Of a stretch of DNA of 25,568 bases, positions 2,329 through 25,568 are shown in pieces. The first letter of the stretch is position 1. The number at the start of each line of letters is the position of its first letter. The notes below the pieces were generated by a model. It saw only the letters and a list, made by a program, of their open reading frames with translations, had not been told where the DNA came from and made no database searches. The DNA comes from a virus: IMG/VR virus record IMGVR_UViG_3300042261_001008, positions 1 through 25,568 of that record; one strand, given 5' to 3'. A program made the translations under genes and the position numbers.

Positions 2329-2487
2329 CGCTTGCTCCTGTTGCCTGTTGCCTCTGGGCTTTCAGCTTTCAGCTTTCAGTTTTCAGCTTTCCGTTCCGCC
2401 ATCGTCATCGCTCGCATCGCTTGCTCCTGTTGCCTGTTGCCTCTGGGCTTTCAGCTTTCAGCTTTCAGTTTTCAGCTTTCCGTTCCG
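2311..2487 (-). repeat. 88-bp tandem duplication carrying a gene start and heptamer arrays
   Basis: Bases 2311-2398 and 2400-2487 are direct copies with an 89-bp period and one visible mismatch (GTCAACG versus GTCATCG). Each copy holds the ribosome-binding site, ATG and first codons of the lipoprotein gene, a TTGCCTG heptamer run and a CTTTCAG heptamer run. The upstream copy therefore has a duplicate start at 2417 that reads 13 codons and stops in the repeat. Confidence 0.95.
2376..2417 (-). other. 13-codon upstream mini-ORF created by the duplicated gene start
   Basis: The duplicated start gives ATG CGA GCG ATG ACG ATG and then enters the adjacent heptamer array, where AAC TGA ends it (peptide MRAMTMAERKAEN). 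It has the same AGGAGCAAGCG ribosome-binding site as the real lipoprotein gene. It is probably a by-product of the duplication, but ribosomes could use it and so affect the next gene. Confidence 0.5.
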
Positions 2488-5064: not shown

Positions 5065-5128
5065 GAGTTTTCAGTTCGGAGTTCGGAGTTCGGAGTTCTG
5101 GCCTTCAGCTTTCAGTTTTCAGCTTTTG
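5065..5128. repeat. Heptamer arrays between decoration gene and protease gene
   Basis: Plus strand shows GTTCGGA units repeated several times, followed by CTTTCAG/TTTTCAG units. On the gene strand these are GAACTCC and CTGAAAG arrays. The protease/scaffold stop codon (TGA, 5121-5119) lies inside the CTGAAAG part. The GAACTCC part leads directly into the GAAAGGA ribosome-binding site of the decoration gene. Confidence 0.95.
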
Positions 5129-10942: not shown

Positions 10943-11203
10943 CTACTCGCTCCGCCTCGGCCTTGGCGTGGCCTCGCTGACGGCGATCACCCTGCCGGCG
11001 AAGGTTGAGCCGTCGGCCTCCTTCAGGGCCCGGCGGGCGTCGGATTCGTGGGCGAACTCCACGAAGCCGAAGCCCCGCGGCTTGCCCGTCTCGCGGTCGG
11101 TGCAGTGCACGGCCCGGCGTATCTCGCCGAAACGGCCGAAATGATCCGACAGCTCCTTGTTGGTGGTGGCATACGGCAGGTTCTTGACGTGCAGCGTGTT
11201 CAC
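10943..11203 (-). CDS. RRM-type RNA-binding protein (86 aa)
   Basis: This is a single RNA-recognition motif. RNP2 is LHVKNLP at residues 4-10 and RNP1 is RGFGFVEF at 43-50, with the aromatic residues that stack on RNA bases in place; the beta-alpha-beta-beta-alpha-beta pattern fills the chain and a short basic tail (PRPRRSE) follows. Such small RRM proteins are known from cyanobacteria and other bacteria, including Planctomycetota, and are uncommon in phages. The start is GTG at 11203, with GGGAGAACGCC before it. It follows the large terminase gene after a 72-base gap, so it is probably in the same transcript. It may be a host-derived regulator of RNA stability or translation. Confidence 0.9.
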   Translation of the reverse strand: MNTLHVKNLPYATTNKELSDHFGRFGEIRRAVHCTDRETGKPRGFGFVEFAHESDARRALKEADGSTFAGRVIAVSEATPRPRRSE

Positions 11204-14465: not shown

Positions 14466-15920
14466 TCAAGCGTCGTTTCGGCCATGCCTCGGCCCTCCTG
14501 ATGAGCGGCCGAACCTACTCCGAATCAGGCTGTTGAGCTCGTACATGAACAGCCTGCCGCGGACAGTATGAGGCCGCTTGCGATGGGTGCCCTGAGCCGC
14601 TTTGAGCGCCCACTCCAGCAGGCGAACCGCTCCAACCTGGTCGAGACCAGTCAGTGCCTTGCTGAGGCCGCTGGCAAAGGCGGCCAGTTCGGTGCGCCTG
14701 AACTCATCGGGTGCACGAGGGACGCGGCACATCCGTCCCTGCCTGGCCACCTCGGCATCGCAGGGATAGAGCACGTCGAACACCTGCTGGGCCATCCGCT
14801 CGGCGTGCCAGGTGAGGTCGGCGACGGGCAGGGCAGGGCCGCCTGCCGGCCCTGGGTCGGCTTCGGTCGGCTCAACCGGCTGCGGCTCGGCAGGCAGTGA
14901 GGCGTGAGCCTGTAGGGCTGCCAAAGCCTCGCGTTGGCCGCTATCGCGACTGGCGTCAGCCGTCGGCGGCGGCTCGTGTGCATCGAGGGGCAACGCACAA
15001 TCGCCCCGCTGGGCTTCTCGCACGTCTGGCTGTGGCGGGGCGGTCTGCTGTGGCGAGGCAGGCGTCTGTGCCTCTGGCGTCGGCTCTGCGGGGTCGGCCG
15101 GCGGAGGCGCAGCCGGAGCCGGCTGTTTCTCCTCTGGCGTCTTGCCGCAGCCGTCAGCCGAAGGCGGCGAAGGCAAAGCCGACGCCGCCGGCGGCGTCTG
15201 GTCTCTGGGGTCTGGAGTCTGGAGTCTAGAGTCTGGTGTCTCGCGTGCGTCGGCCGCTGTCCGGCCGCCGGCCGGAAAGTTTCCGGCCGATGGCCGGACA
15301 CCGTCCTGTCCAGCGGCAGCGGCCTTGGCAGCGGCTGCCGCGTCCAGCCGGCGATCCATCTTGCGCCTGCGGTTGCCGCCCTTGCGCTTCGGCGCCTCGG
15401 CCTCGGCGGGTCGTCGCCCCTCGCCCTGGAGTCTCCAGGGGTCGTCGGTGCTCTCCGCGTCGTCGGCGTCGTCGGCGAGCTCAACCGTATACTGCGTTAC
15501 ATCGCGCCTGATCCAGTCGGCGAAATCGGGGCGTTTCGCCCACACCAGCAGCCCCACATCCAGCAGCGCCGGCACGGCCTGCTCCACCAGCGCCACGCTC
15601 AGCCCGACCGCCTGGGCTATCTGCCCCGGCGTGGCCGAGTTGAACTCGTAGTTGACGATGAATCCCCGCAGCGGGGCGATCTGCGCGAACCCGTAGTGAA
15701 TCAGGATCTCGTCGTAGCAGCAGAGGATCGCCGGCCCGCTCTCCAGGGCTTTGATCGCCTCTCGCCGCCGCATGTAGATGATCCCCACGGGCGACTGGTC
15801 GCCCTTGCAGCGGAACTTGCCCCAGTCCAGGGCGCTGGAGCGGCCCTTGCGGATGGCATCATCCGGCAGCAGCTTGCCGATGCCCTCGATGTACAGCACT
15901 CGCTTGTCGATTCGTTTCAT
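14466..15920 (-). CDS. Replication-initiator-like winged-helix protein with long repeat-bearing linker (484 aa)
   Basis: Residues 1-150 include MRRREAIKALESGPAILCCY and a winged-helix segment (PGQIAQAVGLSVALVEQAVP, then ALLDVGLLVW), like the N-terminal domains of phage replication-initiation and DnaD-type proteins. Residues about 170-370 are a Pro/Ala/Asp-rich disordered linker. The C-terminal 110 residues form a compact helical domain (WHAERMAQQVFDVLYP, KALTGLDQVGAVRLLEWALK, RGRLFMYELNSLIRSRFG). A heptamer array is translated in the linker as DSRLQTPDPRDQTP. ATG at 15920 follows GAGAAGGCACGG. Position before the terminase genes suits a replication or DNA-binding role, but the family is not certain. 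Confidence 0.68.
   Translation of the reverse strand: MKRIDKRVLYIEGIGKLLPDDAIRKGRSSALDWGKFRCKGDQSPVGIIYMRRREAIKALESGPAILCCYDEILIHYGFAQIAPLRGFIVNYEFNSATPGQIAQAVGLSVALVEQAVPALLDVGLLVWAKRPDFADWIRRDVTQYTVELADDADDAESTDDPWRLQGEGRRPAEAEAPKRKGGNRRRKMDRRLDAAAAAKAAAAGQDGVRPSAGNFPAGGRTAADARETPDSRLQTPDPRDQTPPAASALPSPPSADGCGKTPEEKQPAPAAPPPADPAEPTPEAQTPASPQQTAPPQPDVREAQRGDCALPLDAHEPPPTADASRDSGQREALAALQAHASLPAEPQPVEPTEADPGPAGGPALPVADLTWHAERMAQQVFDVLYPCDAEVARQGRMCRVPRAPDEFRRTELAAFASGLSKALTGLDQVGAVRLLEWALKAAQGTHRKRPHTVRGRLFMYELNSLIRSRFGRSSGGPRHGRNDA
15198..15242. repeat. GTCTGGA heptamer array inside the replication-like gene
   Basis: Plus strand shows GGGGTCTGGAGTCTGGAGTC followed by TAGAGTCTGGTGTC, a 7-nt period. 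On the coding strand it is read through in frame as part of the disordered linker, with no stop codon. Confidence 0.9.
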
Positions 15921-17972: not shown

Positions 17973-20144
17973 TCACCGTTTGGGCTTGGCCTTCTCCGCG
18001 CGATTCTTCGCAGCGGCCGCCGCCTTGTAGAGCCGCCTGGCGTCGCGCTCGTGGAGTTGCAGCTTCAGCGAGCCGCGGACGCCCAGCGGACTGCCGGCGA
18101 TGGTGACCGTGAAATCGACGTTGCTGGCCTCGACGAACCCGGTGGAGGCGTTGACGGAGAAGACCGTCTCTTTGGCGTTGGCCGCGATCTTCGCCGGCAC
18201 GCCAAAAACCTTCTCGAACTGGCTGGCCGCCTCGCTGTCTCGCCGGGCCTGCTCGTGCCGCTCGGCCTGGGTCTGCCCCTTAGTGCCCTTGATCGGCGCT
18301 TCAGCCACTCGCCCAGCGCGCCGCTGGTTCACCTGGTCGTGCTCATCCGTGGGGCCTTCGCCGCCCGTTGCCTGTTGCCCGCTGCCCGTTGCCTCCTGCG
18401 AGGGCATCCACAGCCGCTCAAACGCATCATCCACGGCCTTCTGCGCCGCCTCCCCGATGCCGGTGATCTCGCGCGTCCAATTGACCCCATGCGTCTCCTG
18501 GAACTTGGCGACCAGCCCCGCGCACCACAGGCCCGCCGCCACCAGCGCATCGCTGACGGCCTTGGGCATGCCAATCGTCGCCACGTGCCTGGCCTTCCAG
18601 CTGTTATCCGCCGGCGGCGTGGGCCTCTGGGGAATCGCTGGAGTTTCGGCTTCCGCCCCTTCAGCGTCCTGGCTGCCGGCTGCCGGCTCCTGGCTACCGC
18701 CGGAAACCAGCGGCCCGGGCTGGGCCTTGCCCAGTGCAGCGTTGACCCGCTCCGTCAGAACCGACTCCGACAGCCCGTGCAGCCAGGCGTGCTCGGCCAT
18801 GTCGGCCTGCCGATCCTCCGGCAGCCTCGCAACCGTGATCGCCTTGTTGAGCGACAGCTTGCCGCCGTCGACCATGGCCTGCAGGAGCGGCGACCACTTG
18901 AGGTAGGCCAAATGTTTCCGCACGTCGTCGTCTCCAAGCCCCAGGGCCTTGGCGATCCCGGCGACGCTGAGGCTCGTCTTGGCGGCGTAGGCGGCCAGGC
19001 CCCTCGCCCGCTCGCCGTGGGTGAGGTCCTTGCGGCTCGCGAAGGTCATCAACTGGAACCAGAGGATCTGCCCGTCGTTGAGCGCTTCGTCGTAGACCTC
19101 GGCCCGCAGGCTCGCCAGCCCCTCGGCCTTGGCCGCCCGGTAACGCCGCTCACCATCCAGCAGCCGGTATCGGCCGCTGGGGAGGCGCATCAGCTTGACG
19201 GCCTCGATTTGCCCCTGCGTGGCCAGCGAGTCGCCCAGCTTGGTCAGGTCCTCGCCGAAGAGACTGTCCGCGCTGCGCACGTTCGACACGACGTCAATCA
19301 GCGACAGATCGACATCGGATGGCCGGGGGATCGGCAGTTTTCCAGGAGAGGCCGGCAGCGTGGCAGCCGCCGAATCGCTAGCCGGTAGCCCGGAGCCGGA
19401 AGCCGGTTCATCGCTACGCCCGAAGCTTTCAGCGTTCGGCTTTGAGCTTTCAGCTTTCGCCCGCTCGGGCCTCGGGAACACCACTTCCTGGACCGACGTC
19501 GCCCAGTGGCGGTTCCATTCCTCGATGGTGACCGTCGTCGGCTCGCCCTTGAAGCGGATCGTGATGGCCTTCTGCTCGAGGTCCACCTCCAGCAGCTTTA
19601 CCGGGCCGTGGCTGGCGCCGTACCTCGGCTCCAGCGTGATCATGCTGCCCTCGGGCCAGGGATCGTTGATGTCGAACAGCCCGATGCACGGCGAGCTGGT
19701 AGCCGGTAGCGTGGAGCCGGTCGCCGGGGCCGTGTCGTTTTCAGGTTTCAGCTTTGAGCTTTCAGCTTTCAGCTTTTCCGTTCCGTTCTCTGTGCCCTCT
19801 GTGCCTCTGTGGCTTCCGGTTGCCTTCGCCGCGCGTGCCATCGTCTCTCCTGGTTGTGCTGAGGCCGGCTTCCGCGGCCGCGCCTCGTTGTTCCTGATCT
19901 CTTCGTCGCTCACCATTGCCGTCGCCGGCAGTTGCGAATCGTCATCCCATGCCGCGTAACGTCGCTCGATGAGGCACTGCACCAGCTGCTTCGCCGAATC
20001 CTTGCTGACCTCCAGCAGGACCCGCAGCACCCGCACTGAAAGGCAGCCGGTCCGCCTCACCACGTTCAGCGCCTGGACCAGATCATCCGCCGTCGGCGGG
20101 TTGCCGCACTCGATGTTGGCGGCGGATGAAAGGTCATGGGTCAT
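17973..20144 (-). CDS. Large ParB/RepB-family protein with repeat-derived linkers (up to 723 aa)
   Basis: The ParB core lies at about residues 265-480: LSLIDVVSNVRSADSLFGED, GQIEAVKLMRLPSGRYRLLD with GERRYRAAK, then the HTH SVAGIAKALGLGDDDVRKHL. An N-terminal HTH-like region (LRVLLEVSKDSAKQLVQCL) and a beta-rich segment (about 155-222) precede it, and a C-terminal region of unknown fold follows. Phage ParB proteins act in plasmid-like partition or DNA modification; which applies here is unknown. Linkers near residues 108-151, 225-258, 481-495 and 576-595 are translated heptamer arrays. Two starts compete: ATG 20144, itself inside an AGGTCAT array and lacking a good ribosome-binding site, or ATG 19841 (622 aa), preceded by CAGGAGAGACG. 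The repeat tract begins soon after the second start. Confidence 0.85.
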   Translation of the reverse strand: MTHDLSSAANIECGNPPTADDLVQALNVVRRTGCLSVRVLRVLLEVSKDSAKQLVQCLIERRYAAWDDDSQLPATAMVSDEEIRNNEARPRKPASAQPGETMARAAKATGSHRGTEGTENGTEKLKAESSKLKPENDTAPATGSTLPATSSPCIGLFDINDPWPEGSMITLEPRYGASHGPVKLLEVDLEQKAITIRFKGEPTTVTIEEWNRHWATSVQEVVFPRPERAKAESSKPNAESFGRSDEPASGSGLPASDSAAATLPASPGKLPIPRPSDVDLSLIDVVSNVRSADSLFGEDLTKLGDSLATQGQIEAVKLMRLPSGRYRLLDGERRYRAAKAEGLASLRAEVYDEALNDGQILWFQLMTFASRKDLTHGERARGLAAYAAKTSLSVAGIAKALGLGDDDVRKHLAYLKWSPLLQAMVDGGKLSLNKAITVARLPEDRQADMAEHAWLHGLSESVLTERVNAALGKAQPGPLVSGGSQEPAAGSQDAEGAEAETPAIPQRPTPPADNSWKARHVATIGMPKAVSDALVAAGLWCAGLVAKFQETHGVNWTREITGIGEAAQKAVDDAFERLWMPSQEATGSGQQATGGEGPTDEHDQVNQRRAGRVAEAPIKGTKGQTQAERHEQARRDSEAASQFEKVFGVPAKIAANAKETVFSVNASTGFVEASNVDFTVTIAGSPLGVRGSLKLQLHERDARRLYKAAAAAKNRAEKAKPKR
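18363..18405. repeat. TTGCCCG-family heptamers inside the ParB gene
   Basis: Plus strand CCCGTTGCCTGTTGCCCGCT then GCCCGTTGCCTCC. The coding strand reads it without a stop as EATGSGQQATGG in a linker of the C-terminal region. Confidence 0.88.
18668..18702. repeat. GTAGCCG-family heptamers inside the ParB gene
   Basis: Plus strand GGCTGCCGGCTGCCGGCTCC then TGGCTACCGCC. It is translated in frame as GGSQEPAAGSQD directly after the ParB core domain. Confidence 0.85.
19372..19466. repeat. Mixed heptamer tract inside the ParB gene with stop-avoiding variant
   Basis: Contains GTAGCCC/GGAGCCG/GAAGCCG units and a CTTTCAG tract. The unit that would put TGA in the ParB frame reads CTTTGAG on the plus strand, giving TCA (codon 234, bases 19445-19443). 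The encoded linker includes RAKAESSKPNAESFGR. Confidence 0.92.
19694..19822. repeat. Composite heptamer plus CTCTGTG tract inside the ParB gene
   Basis: A full composite copy: GTAGCCG-type units, a CTTTCAG array, then the CTCTGTGCCCTCTGTGCCTC module. It is read in frame as HRGTEGTENGTEKLKAESSK and onward. The in-frame TGA expected from the third CTGAAAG unit is TCA instead (codon 130, bases 19757-19755). Confidence 0.95.
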
Positions 20145-20323
20145 AGGTCGTAGGTCCCGGTGTCTCTGGCTTTCAGCTTTTAGCTTTCAGCTTCTCCGCT
20201 TCGTCCTCTGTGCTCTCTCTGCTTCGCTCGAGCTTCGTAGAGCACGCTGTGCCTCTGTGGCCACCCGGCTCCCGGCTTCCGGCTACCTGTTGCCCGTTGC
20301 CTGTTGCCCGTTGCCCGCTGCTC
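20131..20323. repeat. Large mixed heptamer block between ParB and metallopeptidase genes
   Basis: From left to right on the plus strand: AGGTCAT/GGGTCAT/AGGTCGT/AGGTCCC (20131-20158), CTTTCAG/CTTTTAG (20168-20191), a disturbed CTCTGTG module containing GCTTCGCTCGAGCTTCGTAG (20220-20239), CCGGCTC/CCGGCTT/CCGGCTA, and TTGCCCG/TTGCCTG alternating (20290-20320). The whole gap is repeats. The first possible ParB start codon lies inside the leftmost array. Confidence 0.95.
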
Positions 20324-22979: not shown

Positions 22980-23070
22980 TTGCCCGTAGCCTGTAGCCGG
23001 GAGCCAGTAGCCGGGAGTGGCGGCCGTTTCCGGGCTTTCAGCTTTCAGTTTTCAGCTTTCAGCTTTCCGC
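22980..23070. repeat. GTAGCCG and CTTTCAG heptamer arrays
   Basis: Plus strand GTAGCCTGTAGCCGGGAGCC then AGTAGCCGGGAG, a spacer, then CTTTCAG/TTTTCAG units to about 23070. It fills the gap between two genes and stops seven bases short of the stop codon of the Myb-like gene. Confidence 0.95.
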
Positions 23071-24012: not shown

Positions 24013-24554
24013 GGGCGTCCTTTCCCGGGCGGAGTTCGGAGTTCTGAGTTCGGAGTTCTGAGTTCGGAGTTCAGTCGTTGACGTGAATGGCCAGGCCCAG
24101 CTCCTCGGCCAGCCGGCAGGCTGTGTCCCTGCAGGCATCTCGCGTGGTGTAGGTCTCGCTCGTGGCCAGCACCTGGCCGTTGATGTGGATGATGACCCAC
24201 CAGTAGCTCGTGCGTCCCAGCCCCAGCAGCTTCCGCCGCCGGCGAAGCTCGACGCGGTATGCCCGCTGCGATGGCAGCAGCTCGGCGCCTGGCACCCAAA
24301 TATGCGCCCTGGTCCGTCGCCGCGGCCAGGTTGCGGGCGGCGAGGTAGCCGCTCGACCAGATCGTCAGCCGGTAGACCGACTGGCCCGGGCCAGACAGCC
24401 CGCCGAGCGTGTAGGCGCGTGGCGAGCGCAGCAGCCGGTAGGTGATGTACGGGGCGGCGGCATCAGCCGGCGCCAGCACGGGGTACACCCTGCCGCCGGC
24501 AGCGGCCACTTCCGCAATGCCCAGCAGCCAGGCGTGGATGGCTTCTTCGATCAT
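24009..24554 (-). CDS. DUF3168-like tail-completion protein, probably frame-disrupted at its C-terminus
   Basis: ATG at 24554 overlaps the methyltransferase stop (ATGA). Residues 1-80 match the DUF3168 pattern of phage tail terminator/completion proteins: MIEEAIHAWLLGIAEVAA, GRVYPVLAPADAAAPYITYR, GGLSGPGQSVYRLTIWSSGY and LAARNLAAATDQGAY. From about residue 85 the frame reads an Arg/Ala/His-rich sequence antiparallel to real coding patterns and then the heptamer leader (NSELRTPNSELRTP), so the natural C-terminus is not in this frame. The +1 frame carries a good DUF1508-like sequence. Either the tail gene is truncated by a junction or an indel, or it truly overlaps the next gene. The placement far from the head genes is also unusual. 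Confidence 0.5.
   Translation of the reverse strand: MIEEAIHAWLLGIAEVAAAGGRVYPVLAPADAAAPYITYRLLRSPRAYTLGGLSGPGQSVYRLTIWSSGYLAARNLAAATDQGAYLGARRRAAAIAAGIPRRASPAAEAAGAGTHELLVGHHPHQRPGAGHERDLHHARCLQGHSLPAGRGAGPGHSRQRLNSELRTPNSELRTPPGKGRP
24018..24072. repeat. GAGTTCG/GAGTTCT heptamer leader
   Basis: Repeats of GGAGTTCGGAGTTCTGAGTT on the plus strand, ending just before the GAAAGGA ribosome-binding site of the Myb-like gene. The left edge of the DUF1508-like gene meets it: that gene's stop is at 24071-24073. Confidence 0.95.
24071..24295 (-). CDS. DUF1508/YegP-like small protein (74 aa)
   Basis: The C-terminal half, SYWWVIIHINGQVLATSETY then TTRDACRDTACRLAEELG, follows the DUF1508 repeat: two strands around an N-G-Q turn, a conserved S/T-E-x-Y-x-T/S-x and a helix. 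The N-terminal part (LLPSQRAYRVELRRRRK) is a common lead-in in phage versions. The start is GTG at 24295. It lies inside the DUF3168-like frame, shifted by +1, with no good ribosome-binding site, so either it is translated by reinitiation or a frameshift error has damaged this region. Function of the family is unknown. Confidence 0.55.
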   Translation of the reverse strand: MPGAELLPSQRAYRVELRRRRKLLGLGRTSYWWVIIHINGQVLATSETYTTRDACRDTACRLAEELGLAIHVND

Positions 24555-25396
24555 GTTCCTACCTCGGACAGCAACGGGAGTGTCGGCCCATGCCCACGCT
24601 TGACATCAAGCTCGCGGCGGCAGCGGTCTACGGCTATCTGGAAATAGCCGGGGTCGATTTCGATTCCGATGTACCCCAGCCCCGCGCGAATACAGGCAAC
24701 GCCGGCCGGGGCGTGGCCCATGAACGGGTCGAGTACGACGTCGCCCGGTTTGGCGTGCAGCCGCAGGAAATGCGCCACCAGTTCAACCGGCTTCGGCGTG
24801 GGGTGGTCGTCGGCGCTGGGAATGATCTTCGGCAGCCGCACGACGTTTGCCGTTTCCGGCCCCTTGCTTGTGGCTTCCCATTTCAGCCGGCCGCCGCGCC
24901 GATGCGCCACCATCACCATTTCGTAGTTGCGGCGGTAGCGCCAGCCCATGCCCAGCCCGCCCTTGTCCCACACAACCGCGTGGAAGAACGCCAGGCCGTC
25001 GCGATCCATTCGCTCGGCAAGCCAGGCGAACGTCGGGCGAGGGCCGCCGCCGCCGCAGCAGCAGCAGCAGCAGCAGCAGCAGTCGCGCTTCATAACGCGG
25101 GCCGCTTCCCTAAGCATCGCGTCGACCGCCGCCCGCATTTCTTCCGGCCCGTCGTTGGCGATTGGCCGATCCGTCTCGCCCGGAACGTACTCGCCCTTGC
25201 CAAGCGCCGCTTCCCGTCGCGCGATCAGGTCGCCGTTGTTGTTGTTGTGGCCGTAGGGCGGGTCGGTCCAAATGACATCCACCGCCCCCGCCTCAATCAG
25301 CGGCAGCACCTGGAGGCAGTCGGCGTTGACCAGCAGCACCGCGCCGTCGGGTGACTGCCAGTGGGGGAAGCTCGCTTTGATGACCTCAACGCTCAT
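24551..25396 (-). CDS. Beta-class DNA methyltransferase with poly-cysteine insert (281 aa)
   Basis: The catalytic motif WTDPPYGHNNN lies at about 43-53 and the cofactor motif VVLDPFMGHAPAGVACIRAG near 219-238, the beta-class order (IV before I) of N6-adenine or N4-cytosine enzymes. Motif I deviates from the usual FxGSGTT (here FMGHAPAG), so cofactor binding may be altered. Other supporting segments are HPTPKPVELVAHFLRLHAKP and GIEIDPGYFQIAVDRCRREL. Residues 106-114 are nine consecutive cysteines followed by four glycines, coded by TGC and GGC trinucleotide runs between motifs. ATG at 25396 follows AAGAAGG, merging with a CTGAAAG array. It probably modifies phage DNA. Confidence 0.88.
   Translation of the reverse strand: MSVEVIKASFPHWQSPDGAVLLVNADCLQVLPLIEAGAVDVIWTDPPYGHNNNNGDLIARREAALGKGEYVPGETDRPIANDGPEEMRAAVDAMLREAARVMKRDCCCCCCCCCGGGGPRPTFAWLAERMDRDGLAFFHAVVWDKGGLGMGWRYRRNYEMVMVAHRRGGRLKWEATSKGPETANVVRLPKIIPSADDHPTPKPVELVAHFLRLHAKPGDVVLDPFMGHAPAGVACIRAGLGYIGIEIDPGYFQIAVDRCRRELDVKRGHGPTLPLLSEVGT
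25055..25082. repeat. GCA trinucleotide run coding nine cysteines
   Basis: Nine GCA units on the plus strand (TGC on the coding strand) adjoining four GCC units. The run is in frame and may vary in length without shifting the frame. Confidence 0.95.
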
Positions 25397-25403
25397 GCCT
25401 TCT

Positions 25404-25568
25404 TTCAGCTTTCAGCTTTCAGCTTTCAGCTTTTCGGTTCCGTTCTCTGTGCTCTCTGTGCCTCTGTGGCCGGCCCTTTCCGGTTTCAGCTTTCAGCTTT
25501 TAGCTTTCAGCTTTTAGCTTTCAGCTTTTAGCTTTCAGCTTTTAGCTTTCAGCTTTTAGCTTTCAGCT
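25404..25568. repeat. Long CTTTCAG/CTTTTAG array with CTCTGTG module at the window edge
   Basis: CTTTCAG units (25404-25433), the CTCTGTGCTCTCTGTGCCTC module (25445-25470), then alternating CTTTCAG and CTTTTAG heptamers, a 14-nt higher-order period, running to the last base. The array continues beyond the window. No gene is seen here on either strand. Confidence 0.95.

Follow-up and report, generated by a model that had tools for sequence, protein, structure and literature searches.

The presence of two CTTTCAG-type repeat arrays inside a ParB-like open reading frame (ORF) of IMG/VR virus record IMGVR_UViG_3300042261_001008 raises the question of how a repeat that brings in stop codons can persist within a gene, and whether it is translated there. 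On the gene strand the unit reads CTGAAAG and, because TGA sits at offset 1 of each 7-bp unit, three consecutive units (TGA at offsets 1, 8 and 15, that is, one per frame) close every frame, an arithmetic argument that had been correctly made in a preliminary description of the locus. The same description proposed that both arrays escape the stop by the same TGA-to-TCA change, that the resulting CTTTGAG unit is specific to coding copies, and that selection has kept the arrays open, turning a non-coding repeat into protein linkers.

Heptanucleotide repeats in the window

The window analysed here is the entire virus record (25,568 bases). Its minus strand encodes phage head and packaging proteins, recognized by profile matches as a terminase, a portal, an S49 head protease and a major head protein, and no close relatives of the terminase were found among the viral contigs searched. 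It is a phage-like record rich in several families of tandem 7-bp repeats, located mostly at gene borders. Nine exact runs have a period of 7, compared with none for periods 4, 5, 8, 10 and 11 and one to three for periods 6, 9 and 12, and the unit CTTTCAG is present in 28 copies for 2.0 expected, a number that no shuffle reached. The window thus displays the tandem 7-bp organization and over-representation that define heptanucleotide repeats; the copies are also dispersed and mainly intergenic, with the CTTTCAG arrays outside the ParB ORF lying at gene borders (Table 1).

Two of the intergenic arrays belong to an 89-bp unit, tandemly duplicated at 2311-2487 with 98% identity, which contains two heptamer families. 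The record ends within a 13-unit array, and the contig therefore probably broke at the repeat. The array preceding ORF 24551-25396 is separated from the ATG by about 6 bases, a placement also reported for TAACTGA repeats; this ORF additionally contains a DPPYG methylase-like motif and nine perfect GCA repeats in tandem (25055-25082), which encode a cysteine run. Another heptamer family, GTCTGGA, occurs at 15196-15241 within ORF 14466-15920, where it encodes a P/D/Q/T-rich stretch. Finally, a domain seemingly uncommon in phages, the RNA-binding RRM (PF00076, E 4.6e-23), is encoded by a short ORF at 10943-11203.

Table 1. Position of the ParB-like ORF, its linkers and the CTTTCAG-type arrays in the window.
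Feature	Positions	Strand	Description
Intergenic CTTTCAG array, copy 1 of the 89-bp tandem duplication	2359-2393	+	Without CTTTGAG
Intergenic CTTTCAG array, copy 2 of the 89-bp tandem duplication	2448-2482	+	Without CTTTGAG
Unmodified CTTTCAG-type array, end of the S49 head-protease gene	5104-5126	+	AGC AAA AGC TGA
ParB-like ORF	17973-20144	-	723 aa; from the ORF list, Pfam and PHROG
Linker 4, aa 580-600	18345-18407	-	GCCCGTT heptamer array QEATGSGQQATGGEG; TRF 18363-18393; GC3 dip
Linker 3, aa 476-508	18621-18719	-	GGCTGCC heptamer array SGGSQEPAAGSQDAEG; TRF 18671-18699; GC3 dip
Linker 2, aa 228-268	19341-19463	-	CTGAAAG array, then AGCCGGA array; TRF 19424-19458, 19380-19406; GC3 dip
CTTTCAG-type array, linker 2	19426-19460	+	CTTTCAG CGTTCGG CTTTGAG CTTTCAG CTTTCGC; peptide AKAESSKPNAESF
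Middle block between the two CTTTCAG arrays, aa 152-228	19461-19691	-	High GC3 in the frame of the ORF
Linker 1, aa 101-153	19686-19844	-	Consecutive arrays of 8-bp CTCTGTGC, CTGAAAG and 7-bp AGCCGGT; TRF 19788-19811, 19739-19776, 19694-19727; low GC3
CTTTCAG-type array, linker 1	19738-19772	+	TTTTCAG GTTTCAG CTTTGAG CTTTCAG CTTTCAG; peptide EKLKAESSKLKPEN
CTTTCAG CTTTTAG CTTTCAG, intergenic, upstream of the ParB ORF	20170-20190	+	Stop-bearing units
Intergenic CTTTCAG array	23035-23069	+	Without CTTTGAG
CTTTCAG array ahead of the start codon of ORF 24551-25396	25402-25429	+	Without CTTTGAG
13-unit array, CTTTCAG and CTTTTAG alternating	25476-25566	+	Without CTTTGAG; cut by the contig end

A ParB-like protein with an additional N-terminal part

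The ORF matches PHROG 4715 (ParB-like partition protein, E 3e-18) and, above the curated Pfam cut-offs, ParB_N (PF02195, aa 297-350, E 9.6e-7) followed by HTH_ParB (PF17762, aa 373-460, E 4.3e-7), which are the domains of known ParB-like partition proteins in the same order. The ParB homologues found share 24-31% identity with it, cover the ParB domain only, and start only tens of residues before the point matching aa 275-300 of this ORF, most of whose first 260 residues are missing from them. Compared with these homologues, the protein thus has an extra N-terminal part of about 260 residues as well as heptamer-bearing linkers that they lack. The N-terminal, middle, helical (aa 506-580) and C-terminal blocks had no Pfam match above cut-off; neither the ORF nor its middle block had close relatives among the viral contigs, and searches of phages, plasmids and 392 Planctomycetota genomes with the N-terminal and middle blocks returned chance-level matches or none.

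The in-phase unit of both arrays is free of stop codons

The two arrays lie inside the ParB ORF and provide TCA, not TGA, at codons 130 and 234, in agreement with the coordinates, frame and codons given in the preliminary description. In both cases the codon derives from the third unit of the array: the gene strand reads AAG CTG AAA GCT GAA AGC TCA AAG CTG AAA in linker 1 and AAA GCT GAA AGC TCA AAG in linker 2, so that the single unit of each array that would otherwise read AGC TGA AAG reads AGC TCA AAG. The S49 head-protease gene provides a natural control: it terminates in an unmodified array whose TGA is the gene's own stop codon, in the codon context AGC TGA that is read as AGC TCA in ParB.

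As the two tracts have AAAGCTGAAAGCTCAAAGC in common and an AGCCGG-type array follows each of them, one could be a copy of the other, in which case TCA would have arisen only once within the gene. We consider this rather unlikely, since the shared letters consist of heptamer sequence only, the neighbouring units differ between the tracts, and the TCA solution recurs in many unrelated genes (see below). A copying event would in any case be compatible with the explanation that we favour, and bears only on the independence of the two changes.

Support for translation of the arrays

Coding signal was judged by third-position GC (GC3) and homology, as a codon-usage score derived from long ORFs was too noisy, due to shadow ORFs in the training set. 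GC3 reaches about 0.8-1.0 in one common frame at aa 1-80, 150-225, 280-475, 510-580 and 610-720, and falls where the repeats lie. All blocks are thus in a single frame, over 723 codons devoid of stop, which argues against the ORF being two or three genes parted by intergenic arrays and open by accident, with ParB beginning around codon 286, or with codon 168 as the start of the middle block. Such an arrangement would fit with most CTTTCAG-family arrays of the window being intergenic, with homologous ParB proteins beginning near there, and with the weak GAGG found upstream of ATG 168; however, high in-frame GC3 starts ahead of ATG 168, no ATG, GTG or TTG is present in codons 103-167 or 223-285 even though the ParB domain starts near aa 275, and two open in-phase units would be unexpected given that none of the 30 units elsewhere in the window is CTC. 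We therefore regard separate genes as improbable. Because no start codon lies between each array and the block that follows it, both arrays must be read through for these blocks to be made. The protein itself may begin at codon 102, since an AGGAG-type ribosome site precedes ATG 102 and none precedes ATG 1, and both arrays are downstream of either start.

Further support comes from homology-confirmed genes of other genomes, in which the same in-phase solution is encountered. Taken together with the coding signal that flanks the arrays in one frame and the lack of alternative starts, this sequence evidence supports the earlier proposal of arrays translated as linkers.

Heptamer arrays in the other linkers of the protein

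The preliminary description covered two arrays, but further heptamer-family arrays occupy its remaining linkers as well, so that one is present in every apparent inter-domain linker of the ORF (Table 1), while the homology-defined ParB domain is devoid of heptamer repeats. We attach no probability to the coincidence between linkers and arrays, because the linkers were recognized partly by their low GC3, which is itself caused by the repeats. The families other than CTTTCAG are stop-free on the gene strand, and therefore only the CTTTCAG family required a change. The arrays of ParB would yield short, hydrophilic linkers that are probably unstructured. An AlphaFold2 single-sequence model of the protein has coil in the linkers, but its low confidence (mean pLDDT 41.6) makes it too poor to judge them.

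CTTTGAG in the window and in other genomes

CTTTGAG is present in four copies in the window, two of them isolated and the other two being the ParB array units. Among the units of CTNAAAG arrays, those of the ParB ORF comprise four CTG and two CTC, versus 23 CTG, seven CTA and no CTC in the rest of the window, and this difference (2/6 vs 0/30, Fisher p = 0.024) is a modest enrichment that rests on two units. The reported absence of CTTTGAG from intergenic copies is thus true of the array units of the window, but it does not extend to other genomes. In non-coding arrays outside the window, defined as those without a covering ORF of at least 60 codons, CTC accounts for 6/56 units in viral contigs, 1/53 in a Phycisphaerales genome (G001), 5/19 in a Planctomycetota genome (G019) and 54/330 (16%) in mixed GTDB contigs. 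A similar frequency of CTTTGAG in intergenic arrays, which the preliminary description had named as evidence that would count against it, is therefore encountered in general but not in this window. In other genomes CTTTGAG belongs to the usual variation of non-coding arrays, and we reject the idea that it is coding-specific; as it is common there, survivorship becomes the simpler reading of the ParB units. This does not overturn the translation of the arrays.

With CTC representing 16% of the units in the non-coding arrays of the mixed bacterial set, one might also consider CTTTGAG as a neutral variant whose in-phase position is meaningless, yet the complete lack of CTC among the 30 units outside the ParB ORF and the coding signal flanking both arrays on both sides make such a chance occurrence very doubtful. 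Least probable of all is positive recruitment, by which TGA-to-TCA would have been favoured through a benefit of the linkers to ParB function: the change does sit exactly where it is needed in both arrays, and the linkers are at apparent domain borders, but the same pattern is predicted by survivorship alone, non-coding arrays of other genomes often contain CTC units, and the searches returned no relatives of the N-terminal and middle blocks that could be compared for selection. The statement that selection has kept the arrays open is thus retained in the sense of survivorship, or of purifying selection that removes nonsense changes from a required ORF, and abandoned in the sense of functional recruitment.

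In the Phycisphaerales genome, GCTTTNAGCTTTNAG occurs at 182 places. Its CTTTNAG arrays are often in facing pairs, made of a minus-strand array, about 10-100 bp, and a plus-strand array (loci L240, L242-L245, L252-L254, L257, L259, L262, L265, L266 and L269); each pair is an inverted repeat and could therefore fold as a hairpin.

CTNAAAG arrays within conserved genes

Arrays were scored as running through an ORF when at least 40 codons were present on each side. We identified ten such CTNAAAG arrays in viral loci and ten in GTDB loci, and 17 of the 20 contain CTC. Their peptides resemble one another, following A-E/Q-SSKLKA-E/Q. The arrays themselves comprise a few tandem heptamers, and their flanks are unrelated. 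Over all through-ORF arrays the in-phase unit gives TCA or TTA in 25 of 25 cases, while CTG or CTA is kept in 20 of 54 out-of-phase units, although there is some circularity in the in-phase count, as only open ORFs were scored as coding. A few of the array-bearing ORFs may be shadow frames; those confirmed by homology are real genes.

The latter include a Mu-type portal (PF06074, E 1e-114), in which the array corresponds to a 5-residue insertion relative to four phage portal homologues, and phosphoenolpyruvate synthase (PpsA), where it corresponds to a 6-residue insertion, SSKLKA, relative to 2ols. The units of the PpsA array are CTG, CTA, CTC and CTA, and the sole stop-free unit is the in-phase one. 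Arrays are also present in homologues of methionyl-tRNA formyltransferase (Fmt, compared with 1fmt), acetylglutamate kinase (ArgB, compared with 2bty), cysteine desulfurase (IscS, compared with 9wep) and MurD (compared with 3lk7). The arrays of MurD and Fmt entail almost no difference in length, if any, and may therefore stand in place of a native loop.

The cysteine desulfurase homologue (L136:2547-3731) has a second insertion-like stretch, GGRLKAEGLK, at about aa 88-97, which is partly missing from the aligned solved structure. In addition, a minus-strand phage ORF of 395 codons (L009) has a C-terminal Phage_Mu_F domain preceded by other sequence, with RKGAKTQRVEAESSKLKAQ between the two as a candidate junction array.

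Proposed origin of the linkers and comparison with known repeats

We thus propose, as the probable explanation, that heptanucleotide repeats are translated as linkers of the ParB-like protein, and that the persistence of the ORF requires a CTC or CTT unit in phase and is due to purifying selection or survivorship. The heptamer arrays would be dispersed repeats tolerated where they are least harmful, namely at gene borders, in loops and at domain borders, and those of the ParB gene would lie between folded blocks and be translated along with it. The stop-bearing CTGAAAG orientation would survive in an ORF only if its in-phase unit is CTCAAAG or CTTAAAG. The variant base and the array may result from ordinary slippage and substitution, or from the insertion of an array already holding a CTC unit. 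The outcome would be a full-length ParB protein with flexible linkers, open through purifying selection or survivorship.

More tentatively, and with more doubt than confidence, we suggest that conserved genes of many phyla and of phages repeatedly acquire arrays that stop all frames, by entry or by growth in place, always with TCA or TTA as the in-phase unit. The arrays might in this way be a widespread source of loops and linkers, all the linkers of the present ParB protein deriving from heptamer arrays.

An excess of heptameric repeats, located mostly in intergenic regions, is known from bacteria, as exemplified by the cyanobacterial STRR and by GGGAATC and GGGGA(C/T)T of Xanthomonas and Nostoc (PMC4692102). 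Like the arrays described here, these form many-copy tandem 7-bp arrays, mostly between genes near start or stop codons, and are under-represented in coding sequence. Their units are different, and the focus of that study was on intergenic G-quadruplexes and regulatory roles, whereas the present arrays were followed into ORFs, where the stop-bearing orientation is read through.

In Beggiatoaceae, the TAACTGA direct repeats (MacGregor 2015, PMC4679880) are heptamers with one orientation that stops all frames; they are found across stop codons and ahead of start codons. That study foresaw that the repeats could be tolerated between the subunits of modular proteins, at their beginning or at their end. 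The units of our window are CTTTCAG, AGTTCGG, GTTGCCC and others, not TAACTGA; moreover, forward TAACTGA arrays are found at ORF ends and the copies within ORFs are in the stop-free orientation, whereas the arrays studied here are found well inside ORFs in the stop-bearing orientation and have an altered in-phase unit.

The Rickettsia palindromic elements are a known case of in-frame repeats within unrelated genes (PMC10969869), tolerated as extra peptide. The present arrays are likewise in frame in unrelated protein genes (the portal, Fmt, ArgB, PpsA, IscS and MurD). The Rickettsia elements measure about 150 bp; the coding arrays contain no conserved element of this size, being tandem heptamers of mostly 3-7 units that encode about 7-16 residues.

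In the open-access literature searched, the peptides SSKLKAQ, LKAESSK, KLKAESS and QSSKLKA appear in no paper, no report of heptanucleotide repeats in Planctomycetes was found, and the present pattern is unreported, which is weak evidence of novelty.

Although heptameric repeats are over-represented in bacteria, their origin and effect have been little studied. A repeat that stops all frames unless one defined base changes is a natural reporter, whose state within ORFs reveals whether it is translated. Should the pattern prove to be genome-wide, it would provide countable in-frame acquisitions in well-understood enzymes, from which the emergence of loops and linkers and the spread of the arrays could be studied.
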